Shown here: positions 633 to 31,302 of the stretch, one piece after another
How positions within the stretch are numbered: position 1 is the stretch's first letter
How the letters are laid out: every line of letters begins with the position of its first letter
Made by a program: the position numbers and the translations under genes
Notes under the pieces: model-generated
What the model saw: only the letters and a program-made list of their open reading frames with translations
The model's database searches: none
What the model was told of the DNA's origin: nothing
NCBI RefSeq assembly: GCF_000526375.1
Contig: NZ_JAFY01000002.1
Span: 1,178,001 to 1,242,000, forward strand
Length of the DNA: 64,000 bases
Origin: Aminiphilus circumscriptus DSM 16581
GTDB taxonomy: Bacteria > Synergistota > Synergistia > Synergistales > Aminiphilaceae
Direction of reading: 5' to 3'

Positions 633-670
633 ATGTACGGTTTAACTGGAACGAGAACCATTTCATCATA

Positions 671-772
671 TACACCTCCGAGTCCGTGTTCCTGTGGGAG
701 CGATCCTATGGAAGCGGACCGAAGGGCTCCTTCGGAAACGAAGGCGCCTCCCGTGTTCGGAAAGGAGGAGAT
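671..772 (+). ncRNA. Moco-family riboswitch 1 (upstream of tupA)
   Basis: The RNA starts with CCTCCGAG (P1 strand at 675-679) and ends with CGGAAAGGAGG (closing strand 764-768). Between them are the family core elements GAAGGGC, GGAAACG and CGCCTCCCG. A GTCCG/CGGAC arm encloses a TTCC...GGAA sub-arm, so the P3-like domain is present. These elements match the Moco RNA motif, which senses molybdenum (or tungsten) cofactor. It is followed by an intrinsic terminator, which suggests premature termination when cofactor is abundant. Confidence 0.85.
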
Positions 773-792
773 GCAGGCTTTTCGGCCTCTGC

Positions 793-997: not shown

Positions 998-1855
998 ATG
1001 CATCGGAGAAACGTTGCATTCCGTTTCCCGCGCTTTTCGTTCCTTTTTGTCCTCACCGTTGCTCTCGGCCTCGTGCTGGGCGGCGTCGCCGCGGCGAAGG
1101 CGCCTGTGCTGCGCATGGCCACAACCACCAGCACGGACAACACGGGACTTCTGGACTACCTGGCGCCCCTTTTTCAGCAAGCGACCGGAATCGAGCTTCA
1201 GTGGGTCGCTGTTGGAACCGGAAAGGCCATCGAGTTCGGCAAGAACGGCGACGTGGACATTCTCTTCGTCCACGATCCCGAGTCGGAGAAGGCGTTTCTG
1301 GACGGCGGCTTCGGCGTCAACCGCCGCCAGGTGATGTACAACGATTTCATCTTCATCGGTCCCAAGGAAGATCCGGCGAAGATACAGGGACTTTCCGCCG
1401 CGGAGGCCCTCAAGGTCATCGCTGCGAAGAAGGCGGTCTTCACGAGTCGCGCCGACAAATCGGGCACGCACATGAAGGAACTTGCCCTCTGGCAAGAGGC
1501 CGGAATCGACGTTCCCGACAAGGAACCCTGGTACATCCAGGTTGGACAGGGCATGATCCAGACCATCAACATCGCCGCCGAGCGGAACGGCTACACCCTC
1601 ACCGACCGGGGCACCTTCATCAAGTACGAGGAGAACCACAAGGGCAATCCTCCCCTGGTGATCCTCTCCGAGGGTGACAAGGCCCTGCGGAACCAGTACA
1701 GCGTCATCGCCGTCAATCCCGCGAAGTGGAGCGACGCCCGCTACGACCTGGCGGTGAAGTTCATCGACTGGATCGTCTCTCCCGAGACGCAGAAGGTCAT
1801 CGCGGAGTTCAAACTTTCCGGGAAGCAGCTTTTCTTCCCCAACGCGGGAGAATAG
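998..1855 (+). CDS. tupA: Tungstate ABC transporter substrate-binding protein TupA
   Basis: Periplasmic binding protein of 285 residues with a signal peptide (cleavage probably after VAAAKA, about residue 33). The mature N-terminus has the TTTSTDNTG motif that forms the oxyanion site in TupA, and SGTH, the second anion-contact motif, lies near residue 152. TupA delivers tungstate, and more weakly molybdate, to the TupBC permease. An AAAGGATG ribosome site precedes the ATG. It is the first gene of tupA-tupA2-tupB-tupC and sits behind a Moco riboswitch and terminator, so uptake should fall when Mo/W cofactor is plentiful. Assignment is by motif recognition. Confidence 0.9.
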   Translation: MHRRNVAFRFPRFSFLFVLTVALGLVLGGVAAAKAPVLRMATTTSTDNTGLLDYLAPLFQQATGIELQWVAVGTGKAIEFGKNGDVDILFVHDPESEKAFLDGGFGVNRRQVMYNDFIFIGPKEDPAKIQGLSAAEALKVIAAKKAVFTSRADKSGTHMKELALWQEAGIDVPDKEPWYIQVGQGMIQTINIAAERNGYTLTDRGTFIKYEENHKGNPPLVILSEGDKALRNQYSVIAVNPAKWSDARYDLAVKFIDWIVSPETQKVIAEFKLSGKQLFFPNAGE

Positions 1856-7868: not shown

Positions 7869-7879
7869 CAGAATGAGCG

Positions 7880-18872: not shown

Positions 18873-19601
18873 TCAACAGTGTCGCTGTGGTGTTCCCGAG
18901 AGGGCCACGTACCGTTTCGAAGGCCTGCCCACGGGTGCTACATCAAAATCGATGGTCACCTGGGATGTCTCGGCGAGATACTCGAGGTAGCGCCGGGTCG
19001 TGGAGCGCCCCATGCCGAGATGTTCCGCCGCTTCGGAGGCGGAGAGCCCCCCTGGGGCATCCCGGAGGAGTCGTTTGACCTTCTCGAGGATGCGATTTTG
19101 AATTCCCTTGGGAAACACGCTCGAATCGGGGGGAATGGCGCCTCGTTTCAGCCCTACCAGGTGATCCAGTTCGTCCTGCCGCCAGGGAGTACGGCGGGTC
19201 ACCAGTTCTCGATGGAATGTGCGGTATGCCGAGAGCGCTGCCCGGAGACGGGAGGAAAGAAAGGGGCGGATGAGGCAGTCGAAAGCGCCCAGACAGATCG
19301 CGCCGCGAATCACATCGGGCTCTTCCGGACGGACAAGGACCACCCAATCCAGCCGGGGATAGTCGCTGCGGGCCTTGCGGAAGCCCTCGAGTCCTCCCAG
19401 GCCGGGAAGGGCGAAGTCGAGCACCACTAACTGGGGAGGTTCGTCGGCGAGAAAGGAGAGGAGCGTTTCACCGGAACCGACTTCTCCGACAAGGCGGTAG
19501 CCGGGTTGCTCTCGCACCAGATCGGCATAGAGGCTTCTCTGGGAGGAATCCTGTTCGGCGACGATCGCGTCGAGAGAATGGGGTACGAACGGACCTCTCA
19601 T
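18873..19601 (-). CDS. Orphan CitB/DcuR-like response regulator behind a Moco riboswitch
   Basis: 242 residues. A receiver domain (phospho-acceptor Asp62 in VVLDFALPGLGG) is followed by a C-terminal DNA-binding domain (GLSASEAAEHLGMGRSTTRRYLEYLAETSQVTIDFD) of the CitB/DcuR type. Both receiver switch positions look altered: Arg91 where Ser/Thr is usual and Arg112 where the invariant Lys is expected (DCLIRPF). No sensor kinase gene is nearby. It may therefore act without phosphorylation. The leader carries a Moco riboswitch, so its level probably follows cofactor status. Targets are unknown; the neighbouring Mo-enzyme genes are candidates. Confidence 0.85.
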   Translation of the reverse strand: MRGPFVPHSLDAIVAEQDSSQRSLYADLVREQPGYRLVGEVGSGETLLSFLADEPPQLVVLDFALPGLGGLEGFRKARSDYPRLDWVVLVRPEEPDVIRGAICLGAFDCLIRPFLSSRLRAALSAYRTFHRELVTRRTPWRQDELDHLVGLKRGAIPPDSSVFPKGIQNRILEKVKRLLRDAPGGLSASEAAEHLGMGRSTTRRYLEYLAETSQVTIDFDVAPVGRPSKRYVALSGTPQRHC

Positions 19602-19707
19602 GACCGAATCTCCCGGGTGAGGTCGCTTGACCCGACGATACGCTCGAGTGCAGGAAAAACGGCTTCGAAACACGAAAAAAAATTGCACGGGAAACCGGGC
19701 ACCATAG

Positions 19708-19814
19708 GAGGCTTCCTCCTTTCCGCACGGGAGGCGGTCGCGTTTCCACGACAACCCTATCGGTCGACATCCGTGGGCCTGGGCCGTTAGGAACGTCGAC
19801 TCGGAGGCTCTATC
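19708..19814 (-). ncRNA. Moco-family riboswitch 3 (upstream of response regulator-xdhC)
   Basis: Minus strand: CCTCCGAG (19803-19807 P1), GTCGAC/GTCGAC arm with TTCCTAACGG inside, CCGATAGGG, GGAAACG, CCGCCTCCCG, and closing GGAAAGGAGG (19715-19719). Directly after it, GGAGG-AAG-CCTCC can refold the closing strand, and a run of eight Ts lies 30 nt further down. A classical terminator stem is weak here. Confidence 0.88.
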
Positions 19815-19827
19815 ATTTTGAACATAC

Positions 19828-26286: not shown

Positions 26287-27915
26287 TTACTCGCTCTGAA
26301 GAAAAGGATAGGTGAAATCCCTGGGCGGAAGAAGCAGTTCCTTGATGGTGCGCAGGGATGTCCAGCGAAGCAGGTTGTAGGATGCCCCGACCTTGTCGTT
26401 GGTCCCCGAGGCGCGTGCGCCGCCGAAGGGCTGGTCTCCCACCATGGCGCCGGTGGTCTTGTCGTTGATGTAGAAATTGCCTGCCGCATGGCGCAGAAGA
26501 TCCTCCGCGGCAAGGATGGCCTGTCGGTCCGTGGCGAAGATGCTTCCCGTCAATCCGTAGGGAGATGTGGCGTCGCAGAGGCGGAGCGTTTCCTCGTATT
26601 TTTCGTCGTCGTAGAGATAGACAGTCAGCACGGGGCCGAAGAGTTCCTCCTCCATGAGGCGGAATTTCGGGTCCGTCGTGAGGATCACCGTGGGTTCCAC
26701 GAAGAATCCTCTGCTGTCGTCACAGGTACCCCCGTGGACGATTGTCGCGTCCTGGTGGTTTTTCGCGTAGGCGATGCTCGAGCGAAGCGTCTCATAGGAT
26801 GTTTTGTCGATCACCGCGCCCATGAAATTTCCGAAATCCTCGATATCGCCCACCTTGACGCGGGAGAGCTGGGAGTGCAGCTCCTCCTCGACGCTTCCCC
26901 AGAGGGATTTCGGGATGTAGGCCCGGGACGTGGCGGAACATTTCTGCCCCTGGTATTCGAAGGCGCCCCGGACGAGTGCGGTTGCCACGACCTGCGGGTC
27001 CGCCGACGCGTGCACCATGGCGAAATCCTTTCCTCCGGTTTCGCCCACGAGGCGAGGGTAGTTTTTGTAGGTTTCGATGTTCGCCGCCACGGTTTTCCAG
27101 ATCCGCCGGAAAGCCCCGGTGGAGCCGGTGAAGTGGACTCCCGCGAGATCGGGATGGGTCAGCAGCAGCTCCATGTCCTTGGAGTCGCCGGGGAGGAAGT
27201 TGATGACTCCGTCCGGAAGCCCCGCTTCAAGGAAGACCCGCATGACGAAGTGGGAGGAAAAAACGCCCGTGGAAGCGGGTTTCCAGAGGATCGTGTTGCC
27301 CATGAGAGCCGGCGATGCGGAGAGATTGCCGCCGATGGCGGTGAAATTGAAGGGGCTGATGGCGAAGACGAATCCCTCGAGAGGGCGGTAGTCGAGCCTG
27401 TTCCAGGCGCCTTCTCCCTGATGGCCGGGCTGGACCGAATAGATCTGACGCATGTTGTGCACGCCGAAGCGAAGAAAATCCGAGAGTTCGCACGCGGCTT
27501 CGATTTCCGCCTGGTGGGCGGTCTTGCTCTGTCCGAGCATCGTCGCCGCGTTCAGTGTCATGCGGTAGGGTCCGGAGATCAGCTCCGCGGCGCGGAGGAA
27601 TACGGAGGCCCTGTGGTGCCAGGGAGTTCTGGACCATGTTTCCCATGCCGCCCGGGAAGCCTCCACGGCCTGCCGGAGTTCCTCCGGGCCCGCCTTGTGA
27701 TAAGTGGCGAGCACTGTGCCATGTTCGTGGGGAATTCGAATTTCCCCCAGTCTTCCGGTGCGGATTTCTTTTCCGCCGATCACGAGAGGAATTTCAAGAT
27801 GCAGAGAGCGCAGCTCCTTCAGTGAACGACGCAGGGCTTCCCGCTCCAGGGAGCCGGGCGCGTAGGAAAGGACCGGTTCGTTTTTCGGCGGCGGAACGAC
27901 AACAACTCCGTTCAT
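26287..27915 (-). CDS. pruA: 1-pyrroline-5-carboxylate dehydrogenase
   Basis: 542 residues of the aldehyde dehydrogenase superfamily, matching the stand-alone P5CDH group by length and motifs: AISPFNFTAIGGNLSASPALMGNTILWKP, VHFTGSTGAFRRIW, VGETGGKDFAMVH (catalytic Glu), GQKCSATSRAYIP (catalytic Cys), and GDQPFGGARASGTNDKVG. It oxidises P5C/glutamate semialdehyde to glutamate with NAD+, the last step of proline or ornithine breakdown. No proline dehydrogenase gene is adjacent. ATG 27915, GGGAGG upstream. A promoter with an overlapping palindrome precedes it. Confidence 0.9.
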   Translation of the reverse strand: MNGVVVVPPPKNEPVLSYAPGSLEREALRRSLKELRSLHLEIPLVIGGKEIRTGRLGEIRIPHEHGTVLATYHKAGPEELRQAVEASRAAWETWSRTPWHHRASVFLRAAELISGPYRMTLNAATMLGQSKTAHQAEIEAACELSDFLRFGVHNMRQIYSVQPGHQGEGAWNRLDYRPLEGFVFAISPFNFTAIGGNLSASPALMGNTILWKPASTGVFSSHFVMRVFLEAGLPDGVINFLPGDSKDMELLLTHPDLAGVHFTGSTGAFRRIWKTVAANIETYKNYPRLVGETGGKDFAMVHASADPQVVATALVRGAFEYQGQKCSATSRAYIPKSLWGSVEEELHSQLSRVKVGDIEDFGNFMGAVIDKTSYETLRSSIAYAKNHQDATIVHGGTCDDSRGFFVEPTVILTTDPKFRLMEEELFGPVLTVYLYDDEKYEETLRLCDATSPYGLTGSIFATDRQAILAAEDLLRHAAGNFYINDKTTGAMVGDQPFGGARASGTNDKVGASYNLLRWTSLRTIKELLLPPRDFTYPFLQSE

Positions 27916-27997
27916 GAGATTTCCGACCTCCCAATTTTGTCGTATCGGCACACTCTCTCCGAAAGAGTGCAATGTGGGCAACCGTGTACCGGGAAGG

Positions 27998-28037
27998 ATG
28001 ATACATTGGGCCTGGAAAAAATGCAAGTTAGTTGCAT
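27998..28037 (-). promoter_or_regulatory. pruA promoter with palindromic operator
   Basis: Minus-strand TTGCAT (28021-28026), 17 nt, TATCAT (27998-28003). The -35 box is one arm of the inverted repeat ATGCAA-GTTAG-TTGCAT (28021-28037), a likely regulator site. Confidence 0.6.
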
Positions 28038-28070
28038 TGCATCCAAAATATCTGAAAAACGAGGGGGAAG

Positions 28071-28161
28071 CTCTGAACAAAGATTTTTCGCTTTTCCTTG
28101 ACTCGGGTCGCGTCAGGCTCTGCGAGACGCCCTGCGGGGGCTGACGCAGCCTTATTCAGAG
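28071..28161 (+). repeat. MITE-like 90-bp element, copy A
   Basis: Imperfect 10-bp terminal inverted repeats CTCTGAACAA and TTATTCAGAG. The inner part CCTTGACTCGGGTCGC and the end GACGCAGCCTTATTCAGAG are shared with the three other copies. No ORF. It lies 45 nt upstream of the pruA promoter. Confidence 0.8.
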
Positions 28162-28379
28162 ACTCCGAAGGAATTTATCCGGATCATGACTTGGGAAACC
28201 CCAGCCCGGGAAGAGTGACACGATGCCGATCGGCTCCATATGTGGTTGGAGAATTTTTCGGAAGAAGCGTGCCTCTCGGAGTGCGCGGTGTGTCGGGAAT
28301 GGAGGCGCCGGTGGAGGACGTCATGGAGAGGGTGCTCTGTTCGTGCGGAAGGCCGTTCTCTTTCTGTATGTGTTCTGTA
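28162..28379. other. Spacer between two MITE-like copies
   Basis: No gene or strong structure was found. Confidence 0.4.
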
Positions 28380-28469
28380 TTCTGAATAAAGGCCTTTCGC
28401 TTTCCCTTGACTCGGGTCGCGTCAGGCTCTGCGAGGCGCCCTGCGGGGCTGACGCAGCCTTATTCAGAG
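28380..28469 (+). repeat. MITE-like 90-bp element, copy B
   Basis: Same orientation and about 90% identical by eye to copy A, 218 bp away. Ends TTCTGAATAA and TTATTCAGAG. The right flank ATTCCTTTGG extends the inverted repeat seen in copy D. Confidence 0.8.
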
Positions 28470-28652
28470 ATTCCTTTGGTCTGTCGCCGGAAAAGGACCC
28501 ATCACATTCGACGGGGATCTGACGGTAGCACCGATGCCCCGGAGAGATCTCGGGCCTTGTGGGGAGCGTAGAATGCTTTCAAACGCCCCACGTGCGTTCG
28601 AGGGGGAGTCCTCAGGTCAGGATGGCGTTGTCATGGTTACGGCGAAAGGGGG

Positions 28653-28683
28653 GGAGGCTGCGGTTGCGGATGCCGCAGCCTCC
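28653..28683. terminator. 11-bp hairpin of unknown role
   Basis: GGAGGCTGCGG (28653-28663) pairs perfectly with CCGCAGCCTCC (28673-28683). It lies downstream of the orphan riboswitch terminator; no T-run. Confidence 0.4.
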
Positions 28684-28703: not shown

Positions 28704-28746
28704 CAAAAAAAGCCCACTTCCCCGCGCAGGAAGTGGGCATGCCCAC
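28704..28746 (-). terminator. Terminator/antiterminator of the orphan riboswitch
   Basis: On the minus strand GCCCACTTCC (28738-28729 side) pairs with GGAAGTGGGC and is followed by seven Ts. Just before it GTGGGC-AT-GCCCAC (28733-28746) forms an alternative hairpin that uses the same GCCCAC arm, so the two folds exclude each other. Confidence 0.8.
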
Positions 28747-28747
28747 A

Positions 28748-28855
28748 TCGTGTCCTCCTTTCCAGCGGGAGGCATACCCGTTTCCGGATATACCCTATCG
28801 GCTCGCTTTCCATGGGCGTCACCTTTAGGAAATGCGAACTCGGAGGTCTTCCGAA
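28748..28855 (-). ncRNA. Moco-family riboswitch 5, orphan
   Basis: Minus strand: CCTCCGAG (P1 28842-28846), GTTCGC/GCGAGC arm with TTTCCTAAAGG...GGAAA inside, CCGATAGGG, GGAAACGG, ATGCCTCCCGC and closing GGAAAGGAGG (28754-28758). Promoter and terminator are intact, yet the next minus-strand gene (pruA) starts over 800 nt later, behind its own promoter and two MITE-like copies. Confidence 0.9.
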
Positions 28856-28875
28856 TATTGTTTTTTTCACGGCGT

Positions 28876-28905
28876 ACCTTACCGGAAACGACAGGACTTT
28901 GTCAA
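28876..28905 (-). promoter_or_regulatory. Promoter of the orphan riboswitch
   Basis: TTGACA (28900-28905), 18-nt spacer, TAAGGT (28876-28881). Confidence 0.65.
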
Positions 28906-29275: not shown

Positions 29276-29310
29276 GCGGGAGATCGTTGCACGATCTCCC
29301 GCTTTTCTTC
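29276..29310. terminator. Terminator after the Mo-storage gene
   Basis: GCGGGAGATCG (29276-29286) pairs with CGATCTCCCGC (29292-29302). T-runs occur on both sides, so it can work in both directions. Confidence 0.75.
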
Positions 29311-29371: not shown

Positions 29372-30202
29372 TCACTCCCGGAAGATTCGAGTGCCCACGT
29401 GCTCTCCTGCGAGGGCTCTGGTGATGTTTCCCTCCTCCATGCCGTTCACGATCTGGATGTGCTCCAGCACCTCGCTGCGCTGAAGGATTTCCAGGCAGGG
29501 GCGTTCCACCACCAGATCGTCCTGGTCCTTGTCGAGGAGTGTTTTCGCGCCGATTTCAGGAATGAACGTCGCCTTGGGGTCTTTTTTGGGATCGTCCGTA
29601 AAGAGCCCCTTTTCGTCCTTGATGAAGATGCAGGAGCGCGCCCCAATGAGATCCGCCAGGAGAATCGTTCCCACGTCCGTGCGATAGACGGGGATGCGTC
29701 CCGTCTCCGGAGGGATGGCGAAGTAGTCGTAGGGGGGCATGCCGTGCATGACGGGAATGCACCCTTGGCTGAAATAGGTGGAGAGCTTCACGATCTCGTC
29801 GTGGCCGATCTTGATGCCTCCCCAGGGAGAGAGGAGCATGGCCACGAGGAGGGCGTTCTGCTCCGAGACGGAGCTGCCGAATTTCGCGATGATCCCCGTG
29901 GGCATGCCCAGCTCGAGGCCGATGGCGTAGATATGTCGGCTCCTGGTTCCTCCGCCGGTGGTGAGAAGCATCTTGTGTTCCGTCTTATTGGCCGTGATTT
30001 CCCGGATGATGCCCGGCAGGGCTTTCACCCCACGGTCGCAGATGGACTGCCCGCCGACCTTGAGAACGTGCACGTCGGGAAAGAGGCGTACCTGAGGTGC
30101 CAGGGGGAGAGATTCCACGAAGCGTTTGCTCACGAGGCTTTCCCCCATGAGTTTGCTCTTCACGTGAAGACGTTTGCCGTCTCGGTCCCGCTGCAAAGCC
30201 AT
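29372..30202 (-). CDS. Molybdenum-storage-protein-like amino acid kinase family protein (MosB-like)
   Basis: 276 residues. It matches MosB/MosA of Azotobacter Mo storage protein rather than UMP kinase: FPDVHVLKVGGQSICDRG, TTGGGTRSRHIYAIGLELGMPTGI, LGSSVSEQNA-like FGSSVSEQNALLVAMLL, GMPPYDYF, RTDVGTILLADLIGA, FIKDEKGLFTDDPKKD, and the ending VNGMEEGNITRALAGEHVGT. Mo storage protein uses ATP to store polyoxomolybdate or tungstate clusters inside a hexamer. Only one such gene is visible, so it may form a homo-oligomer. ATG 30202. It lies 79 nt after a 74-residue small ORF. Function by homology; storage itself is inferred. Confidence 0.8.
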   Translation of the reverse strand: MALQRDRDGKRLHVKSKLMGESLVSKRFVESLPLAPQVRLFPDVHVLKVGGQSICDRGVKALPGIIREITANKTEHKMLLTTGGGTRSRHIYAIGLELGMPTGIIAKFGSSVSEQNALLVAMLLSPWGGIKIGHDEIVKLSTYFSQGCIPVMHGMPPYDYFAIPPETGRIPVYRTDVGTILLADLIGARSCIFIKDEKGLFTDDPKKDPKATFIPEIGAKTLLDKDQDDLVVERPCLEILQRSEVLEHIQIVNGMEEGNITRALAGEHVGTRIFRE

Positions 30203-30281: not shown

Positions 30282-30506
30282 TTATTCCACGTCCTTGGGG
30301 CCGCCGCCGCACCCTTCGCCGGAACCACCCTCGAGTTTCACGAGTTCGGCGCCGGCCTCCCGGGCGATCTGCTCCAGCTCCTGTCTGCGCAGATGTTGTG
30401 CGAAGAACGCCACATCCGCCCCCAGGGCCGCGACGACGCGAAAGCGGGGGCGTCGCTCCTTTTCCTCGATTTTCCGCCGTTCCCTGTAGAAAATTTTCCC
30501 TGCCAC
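30282..30506 (-). CDS. Small conserved-looking protein upstream of the MosB-like gene
   Basis: 74 codons from a GTG at 30506 preceded by GGGGGGAT. Basic N-terminus (GKIFYRERRKIEEKERRPRFR), a predicted helical middle (DVAFFAQHLRRQELEQIAREAGAEL) and a Gly-rich C-terminal tail with one Cys (GGSGEGCGGG). No family recognised. It lies between the TiaS-like and MosB-like genes in the same direction (gaps of 28 and 79 nt), so probably co-transcribed and possibly a partner or regulator of the storage protein. Confidence 0.55.
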   Translation of the reverse strand: MAGKIFYRERRKIEEKERRPRFRVVAALGADVAFFAQHLRRQELEQIAREAGAELVKLEGGSGEGCGGGPKDVE

Positions 30507-30534
30507 GGTAATCCCCCCTTGGTTCTCTCGTCCT

Positions 30535-31302
30535 TCAATCCGGAACGTGTTTGTCCGGTGTGTCGCCGGGCTTCGCCGCCGTTGTCCGCCTTTCCCGGCG
30601 AAGGGCGGGACGGTGGATGCCGTCGTCCTCAAGGATGTGCAGGACCGCGCAGCCGCCGAGAAGCATGGGGCGCAGCCATCCCCCGGTGACGACAGGAGTT
30701 TTCGGGGCTGGTGTCGCGGCATCCCGGTCGAGAAGACACACGTGAATGCCCGAGGCTTCCAGTTCCTCCACGGAGGTTGTCTCGGGAAGCGACCGGAGGC
30801 GGCCGAATTCGATGAAACGTCCGTTCCATCCCCGGGCGGTGAGCCCAACTGCCGCCGCAGCGCCGATGACGCCCCCGTTCGTGCCACCGTGTCCGGAGAG
30901 GTGCGCCTCTCCCGCAGCCCGATAGGCTTCCGCCTGGGTCACGACGGAGCGGGTTGCCAGGGCTCCGAAAGCCGCCAGGGTGGCGAGGGCGGGGTCGTCT
31001 TCACAGGCGACACAGAGCCCAGGGTCGCTTCCGGGAAGGGCGAGGTGTTCCAGATGTGCCACGGCGAGCCGGATGAGTTCGGGGAGGATGCGTCGCTCCG
31101 GGGCGTCCACGACGGCGCAGGCGGAACTGTTGTGGGACGTGTAGGGGATCTCCGGTGCCACCAGAAGTTGCTGGCGAACCACCCCCCATAGGGTGCATCC
31201 TTCCGGAAGCGCATCGCCAAACCAGCGGACGAGCTTTCCCGTACCCCGATCCGCGTCGGGCATGTCCGTGTCGTCAAAACCCAGATAGACTCGTACCGCC
31301 AT
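30535..31302 (-). CDS. TiaS N-terminal-like (GFDDTD motif) protein
   Basis: 255 residues. MAVRVYLGFDDTDMPDADRGTGKLVRWF and TSHNSSACAVV resemble the N-terminal ATP-binding region of TiaS, the archaeal tRNA-Ile2 agmatidine synthetase (DUF1743-type). The protein is much shorter than TiaS (about 420 residues) and lacks its C-terminal zinc and OB parts, so tRNA modification is unlikely. GHGGTNGGVIGAAAAVGL is a second conserved-looking segment. It is the first gene of the MosB-like operon, so an ATP-dependent role linked to Mo/W is possible. Function unknown. Confidence 0.6.
   Translation of the reverse strand: MAVRVYLGFDDTDMPDADRGTGKLVRWFGDALPEGCTLWGVVRQQLLVAPEIPYTSHNSSACAVVDAPERRILPELIRLAVAHLEHLALPGSDPGLCVACEDDPALATLAAFGALATRSVVTQAEAYRAAGEAHLSGHGGTNGGVIGAAAAVGLTARGWNGRFIEFGRLRSLPETTSVEELEASGIHVCLLDRDAATPAPKTPVVTGGWLRPMLLGGCAVLHILEDDGIHRPALRRERRTTAAKPGDTPDKHVPD

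Follow-up and report, generated by a model that had tools for sequence, protein, structure and literature searches.

Riboswitches that seem to lack a gene are commonly dismissed as relics. EutX/Rli55, a small RNA controlled by a cobalamin riboswitch and directed at an ANTAR target, is a described system of another kind, and the switch presented here resembles it in its order of elements: a riboswitch, a terminator and then a conserved hairpin RNA. It differs in having one hairpin with a C-rich tail rather than paired ANTAR hairpins, and in having no known protein partner. For orphan matches in general, Barrick and Breaker (2007; PMC2258182) already proposed either a trans-acting RNA or orphaning by rearrangement. 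In the parts of Regulski et al. (2008; PMC2408646) considered here, Moco-family switches (RF01055) without a P3 stem are tied to the tungsten cofactor (Tuco), whereas those bearing P3 are of the Moco type. The Moco family is also significantly over-represented among antisense-acting riboswitches (24 antisense versus 834 sense; PMC9943018).

Here we describe an orphan Moco/Tuco switch in a 64,000-nucleotide stretch of the Aminiphilus circumscriptus DSM 16581 genome, which we call the window. Like the orphan matches of PMC2258182, it has a functional-looking aptamer that is not upstream of a gene for its cognate metabolite; it differs from them in that its constraint and origin can be tested with a sister species, with sibling switches and with gene order in outgroups. 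It shares with the class described in PMC2408646 the full-length match, the GAAA tetraloop of P4, a terminator platform and the P3-less form. It departs from that class in that 0.8 kb of non-coding DNA, and no Mo/W gene, lies directly downstream, and in a hairpin and C-run past the terminator that are absent from the parts of that description considered here. An antisense-acting switch lies antisense to its target gene, at that gene's 3' end (PMC9943018), whereas both neighbours of the orphan are on its own strand. Our preferred reading, put forward tentatively, is that the orphan is an intact leader, displaced from between a molybdenum-storage (MoSto) gene and tupA, whose Tuco-type attenuator now drives pruA through an untranslated leader of 0.7-0.8 kb. 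The elements of the locus are as follows.

28876-28905, minus strand: promoter-like site TTGACA-18-TAAGGT (-35 TTGACA at 28905-28900, -10 TAAGGT at 28881-28876, spacer 18)
28739-28857, minus strand: Moco/Tuco riboswitch aptamer, RF01055 (cmscan, 67.6 bits, E 3.8e-14)
28733-28746, minus strand: weak proximal antiterminator GUGGGC-AU-GCCCAC, overlapping the terminator
28705-28738, minus strand: intrinsic terminator, 11-bp stem and U7 (stem 28738-28712 plus U-run; terminator scan, fold)
28648-28683, minus strand: distal hairpin GGAGGCTGCGG-CATCCGCAA-CCGCAGCCTCC (28683-28653), then a C-run (pattern search, fold)
27916-28647, minus strand: non-coding stretch to pruA, with no convincing terminator
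about 28387-28470 and about 28085-28163, in this spacer: two insertions of an 84-bp MITE-like element
26287-27915, minus strand: pruA, L-glutamate gamma-semialdehyde (P5C) dehydrogenase (NCBIfam TIGR01236, 776 bits)

An earlier note, made from the letters alone, had described a promoter, a complete riboswitch, a terminator with a mutually exclusive antiterminator, and an 11-bp hairpin, followed by no gene. Much of this stands. The TTGACA-18-TAAGGT site is present and 42/43 identical in the sister species G001 (over 28910-28868); its -35 is perfect and its -10 poor (3/6), which is why the promoter scan did not list it. The aptamer is indeed complete, aligning over RF01055 model positions 1-135 with a score far above the gathering threshold of 36 bits, and no other Rfam family reaches its gathering threshold within the window. 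P4 carries a GNRA tetraloop (GAAA, within CCGGAAACGG), and by eye the P2 receptor reads CCUAA...CAUGG, a variant of CCUAAG...UAUGG. The P3 columns are empty in the model alignment, as they are in 5/5 switches of the window, so the orphan is probably a Tuco-sensing member of the Moco family, judging by sequence. The terminator at 28738-28705 supplies the expression platform expected of RF01055. The next codirectional gene, pruA, lies 823 nt away and is not a Mo/W gene directly downstream, which lowers the case for an ordinary member in an ordinary context, not the case for aptamer membership.

The mutually exclusive pair fared less evenly. GUGGGC, directly 3' of P1, can pair with GCCCAC, which makes up the terminator's first half, a layout shared by the sibling switch at 7872 on the minus strand (GCGGCG/CGCCGC ahead of a GC-rich terminator). 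The terminator was found as claimed and folds at -20.5 kcal/mol, whereas the antiterminator GUGGGCAUGCCCAC reaches only -6.4 kcal/mol and so could win only kinetically.

The region before pruA does lack a convincing open reading frame over its 823 nt, save a possible 44-aa one, and the MITE-like copies are real. The element has at least 44 matches in this genome, 7 in G001 and 0 in two other genomes of the family; both insertions are missing from the G001 spacer, which fits the shorter switch-to-pruA distance there (about 700 nt). However, "no gene" was overstated, because pruA is next and codirectional, with no strong minus-strand terminator between switch and gene in the window or in G001. 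Nor did the promoter that had been assigned to pruA itself appear: the promoter scan found none at 9/12 or better.

Gene order around the switch

The displacement model draws on further features of the window.

29372-30202, minus strand: molybdenum-storage-protein (MosB)-like gene, upstream of the switch (PDB match MoSto beta, E 6e-63)
18873-19818, minus strand: Moco switch (19700-19818) and DcuR/DpiA-like response-regulator gene (18873-19601) (cmscan, profile search)
664-783, plus strand: Moco switch before tupA, inverted relative to the orphan (cmscan, 76.9 bits)
998-1855, plus strand: tupA (NCBIfam NF041772, 364.8 bits, under its cut-off of 400)

The genome holds seven RF01055 switches, of which five are in the window: the orphan and four gene-linked siblings (664+, 7872-, 19700- and 24875+), behind which lie tupA, a MolA-like binding protein gene, the DcuR/DpiA-like response-regulator gene and a cupin gene. 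We collected Moco switches from 183 Synergistales genomes and examined the genes downstream of 191 of them. The usual ones are tupA, XDH-family genes, the response regulator, wtpB, moeA, the MoSto operon, MolA and tungsten aldehyde oxidoreductase genes.

Four relatives (G053, G033, G032 and G017) have the order MoSto, Moco switch, tupA. In the window the orphan comes after MoSto, and tupA (69-70% to TupA of G032/G033 by tblastn) is found 28 kb off on the opposite strand with the 664+ switch in front of it; flipping back the stretch bounded by these two switches would give the relatives' order. The suggestion that a regulated gene had been lost thus finds its candidate in tupA, which follows the MoSto-linked switch in those four genomes, but the corollary that nothing is left to regulate fails on codirectional pruA.

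The pruA side of the locus also has counterparts. A Moco switch precedes pruA in four further families of the order. In G034 the two are adjacent, separated by 286 nt that hold a terminator and no open reading frame; in G012 and G053 the response regulator lies between them; and in G004/G013 pruA comes later in the run, after the regulator plus another aldehyde dehydrogenase. On the minus strand, the window and G053 share the order pruA-XDH-cupin-aminotransferase-XdhC, but the response regulator and its switch stand before XdhC in the window and before pruA in G053. The orphan occupies both the tupA-switch place and the pruA-switch place of its relatives.

We propose that the orphan was originally the leader of the tungstate transporter genes (tupA and those after it), with the MoSto gene on its other side. 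The tup genes would then have been carried to 998, under another switch, by a rearrangement that was probably an inversion involving two switches in opposite orientation, and the same event would have brought pruA downstream of the orphan. With two genomes of the genus in the collections, the model draws on gene order in outgroups rather than on breakpoints, none of which was seen. G002, of the same family, has MoSto leading to tupA with no intervening switch, and the rearrangement path is compatible either way. In the aptamer tree the orphan groups with the 24875+ switch (support 0.93, with one G010 wtpB switch inside), from an RNA that is too short to establish descent.

Several other arrangements came to light. 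Two genes at 30282-31272 (74 aa, conserved, and about 245 aa) precede the MoSto-like gene and accompany MoSto in every Synergistales MoSto locus checked; neither has a Pfam or NCBIfam match, and their products are possible MoSto accessory proteins. At L048 (G000:C2 569607-569727) and L040, another Moco switch, driving a second XDH-family gene, has a second pruA paralogue on its upstream side. In family f5 (G031:C37, G044:C1, G049:C2 and others), two tandem Moco switches precede tupA and each seems to have a terminator of its own, an arrangement found in none of the other families surveyed. Two Moco switches about 150 nt apart stand back to back and drive divergent transporter operons at L263 (G078:C188) and L280 (G077:C73).

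Constraint in the sister species

Close relatives had been proposed as a check on the orphan, and the comparison could be made with G001 (Synergistaceae bacterium UBA5560), the only same-genus genome in the collections, so that two genomes of the genus are compared. G001 is syntenic: the switch is intact at the same place, between the MoSto-like gene (98% identical) and pruA, which is again the next gene. As a neutral yardstick we used four-fold degenerate sites in eight shared genes, which are 90.2% identical (1356/1504).

Against this yardstick, 28776-28654 has 0 substitutions in 122 nt where 12 are expected (P=3.2e-6), and the stretch from the aptamer core to the C-run has 4 in 196 nt (P=1.6e-5). 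The orphan's core differs at 4/92 positions and its platform at 0/49; the four gene-linked switches of the window differ at 3/93, 5/97, 1/92 and 4/99 in the core and at 2/58, 5/50, 2/37 and 4/60 in the platform. Core and platform being as conserved as those of its siblings, the orphan is under selection about as strong as that on working switches. The terminator stem is identical between the two species, and by eye the changes in P2 and P4 preserve pairing (U.G to C-G and U.G to U-A). Identity falls off on both sides, to about 60% with many gaps in the spacer upstream and to 82% right past the C-run, and parts of the pruA-proximal spacer are again 93-96% identical.

The alternative that deserves the most weight, though we consider it unlikely, is that the orphan is a relic: a rearrangement cost it its gene, and it persists by chance or because its terminator separates MoSto from pruA as an insulator. 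The outgroup order MoSto-switch-tupA does suggest that a gene has moved away; orphaning by rearrangement is a named explanation for such matches (PMC2258182); and the comparison involves two species whose neutral divergence is just 10%. Chance retention sits poorly with a core and platform as conserved as those of four gene-linked switches and with 4/196 changes from core to C-run. An insulator would need the terminator alone, leaving the conservation of promoter and aptamer unneeded, and the MoSto-like gene already has its own terminator-like hairpin near 29300. The claim that preserved pairing speaks against long decay therefore holds up, and within these two genomes the evidence argues that selection retains the orphan and that it is not a decayed fossil.

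The spacer itself was searched for gene remains. A stretch at 28170-28370 is 93% identical in G001, with no open reading frame common to both species. A tblastn search with 11 regulators found nothing convincing in either spacer (best E about 0.06, on the wrong strand), so a decayed response-regulator gene was rejected. An antisense 142-aa frame in the G001 spacer was rejected as well: the window does not keep it open, and the substitutions are spread evenly across the three codon positions (25/26/33).

The distal hairpin and C-run

The 11-bp hairpin noted earlier is present at 28683-28653, a single hairpin with a 9-nt loop that begins 20 nt past the terminator U-run. With its C-run it is identical in G001 save one C of the run. 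This element is not an orphan-only mark, an idea we discarded on finding it in gene-linked leaders, where it lies 55-135 nt past the aptamer, immediately ahead of the ribosome-binding site: those of tupA (G004, G013, G009, G026 and G033, the last a MoSto-tupA leader), of the MoSto operon (G017, G025, G032 and G053) and of wtpB (G010). It also follows the gene-less switch of G058 and the switches of G156 and G065/G066, with a compensatory change in the stem between the last two. It is missing from the pruA leaders of G034, G053 and G012. The orphan therefore looks like a leader of the gene-linked type, complete but deprived of its gene, and the hairpin and C-run point to tupA- or MoSto-type descent.

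A strict pattern for the element occurs once in the window's 128 kb of strand. Counted over all loci, the 200 nt following each switch (about 38 kb in total) contain 9 unique instances. The rest of the Synergistales sequence, 1.9 Mb of strand, contains 13, some being the same hairpins in mirror image, and 2.4 Mb of sequence from other bacteria contains 1. The density after switches is about 30 times that elsewhere in Synergistales loci. The hairpin matches no known Rfam family at E<=1 in the relatives' leaders, and its stems vary too much in length to align across leaders. In the G004 leader, the predicted fold allows the C-rich tail to pair with the ribosome-binding site, and such tails may do so in gene-linked leaders more generally. 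We regard the hairpin and C-run as a candidate for a new leader element, shared by Moco switches of several Synergistales families.

Such an element could also act away from its own transcript. On this account, which we hold to be rather improbable, the switch would make a cofactor-responsive RNA that acts in trans, either the short product of termination or a longer one from readthrough that includes the hairpin and C-rich tail, for example with the CCUCCCCC stretch pairing with ribosome-binding sites. Its best argument is the absence of any substitution in 122 nt over the terminator and distal hairpin, with identity falling to 82% right past the C-run. It draws further on two Moco switches with terminators and no codirectional gene, in G058 and G156, each beside a convergent gene; these and the G065/G066 switches carry the hairpin and C-run as well. 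However, the element is ordinary in gene-linked leaders and so no mark of a free RNA, no target has been identified, and G058 and G156 are draft metagenome bins. That a gene-free Moco/Tuco switch yields a cofactor-responsive RNA acting in trans, its conserved hairpin and anti-Shine-Dalgarno-like C-rich tail serving to regulate other mRNAs and G058 and G156 offering parallels in other Synergistales families, seems quite improbable to us. A regulated short reading frame is very improbable: AGGAGG in P1 is perfectly spaced from an ATG at 28748-28746 that opens a 44-aa frame (MWACPLPARGSGLFLFGALMPLEAAASATAAS...) through the terminator, with its first 31 residues identical in G001, but AGGAG belongs to the aptamer consensus, no synonymous change is available as coding evidence, and the 1-nt C-run difference shifts the frame in G001 (35 aa versus 44).

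The further cases merit description in their own right. The second gene-less Moco switch (L302/L066; G058:C114:9962-10084, minus strand; draft bin) has an 80.2-bit aptamer, a promoter-like site and a strong terminator, and a convergent treZ-like gene ends 146 nt past the aptamer. The third (L301; G156:C189:220-338, plus strand; draft bin) has a convergent DUF711-like gene at 298 nt and a leader resembling the tupA leaders of G121/G171. Both, beside convergent genes, would fit the antisense-acting class (PMC9943018). In two species of one genus (L254 and L281; G065:C2:394055 and G066:C1:1731007), a switch, a terminator and the covarying hairpin with C-run stand 270-305 nt ahead of an HD-domain (perhaps HD-GYP) gene.

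A possible route from cofactor to pruA

If the orphan is a displaced leader now reading into pruA, selection would have kept it since before the split of the genus's two known species, and it would probably work as an OFF switch. The antiterminator would form first and be disfavoured once bound ligand extends P1 (CGAUGU with AUAUCG in G001). With cofactor bound, P1 would form, the terminator would fold and an RNA of about 160 nt would be released; with cofactor scarce, the proximal antiterminator would let polymerase read on through the non-coding leader, where pruA is the only gene that readthrough could reach.

Such an output would be sensible. P5C dehydrogenase is NAD(P)-linked and requires neither Mo nor W, and an NAD-linked aldehyde dehydrogenase could be of use when W/Mo aldehyde oxidoreductases are without cofactor. 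Inducing pruA under cofactor shortage would be analogous to the control of cofactor-independent isozymes by cofactor switches.

Several points weigh against this route to pruA. A leader of 823 nt (about 700 in G001) is far above the usual length, and the -10 of the switch promoter is poor. A weak pruA-proximal promoter is possible, because that region is 96% conserved. A passive leader would not call for conservation as high as that of the hairpin and C-run, and there is a second conserved stretch at 28370-28170 (93%).

Gene-less switches are already a known category; what this locus adds is a measured constraint, an origin, a linkage to pruA, a hairpin element and further gene-less cases. With a sister species, four gene-linked siblings and outgroup gene order as controls, the orphan is a testable case. 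We know of no Moco-responsive small RNA, and the orphan would be the first if it acts as a free RNA. If the switch instead drives pruA, the cofactor regulon would extend to an ordinary NAD-linked aldehyde dehydrogenase operon, a reach that the repeated linkage of switch and pruA in five families of the order suggests.
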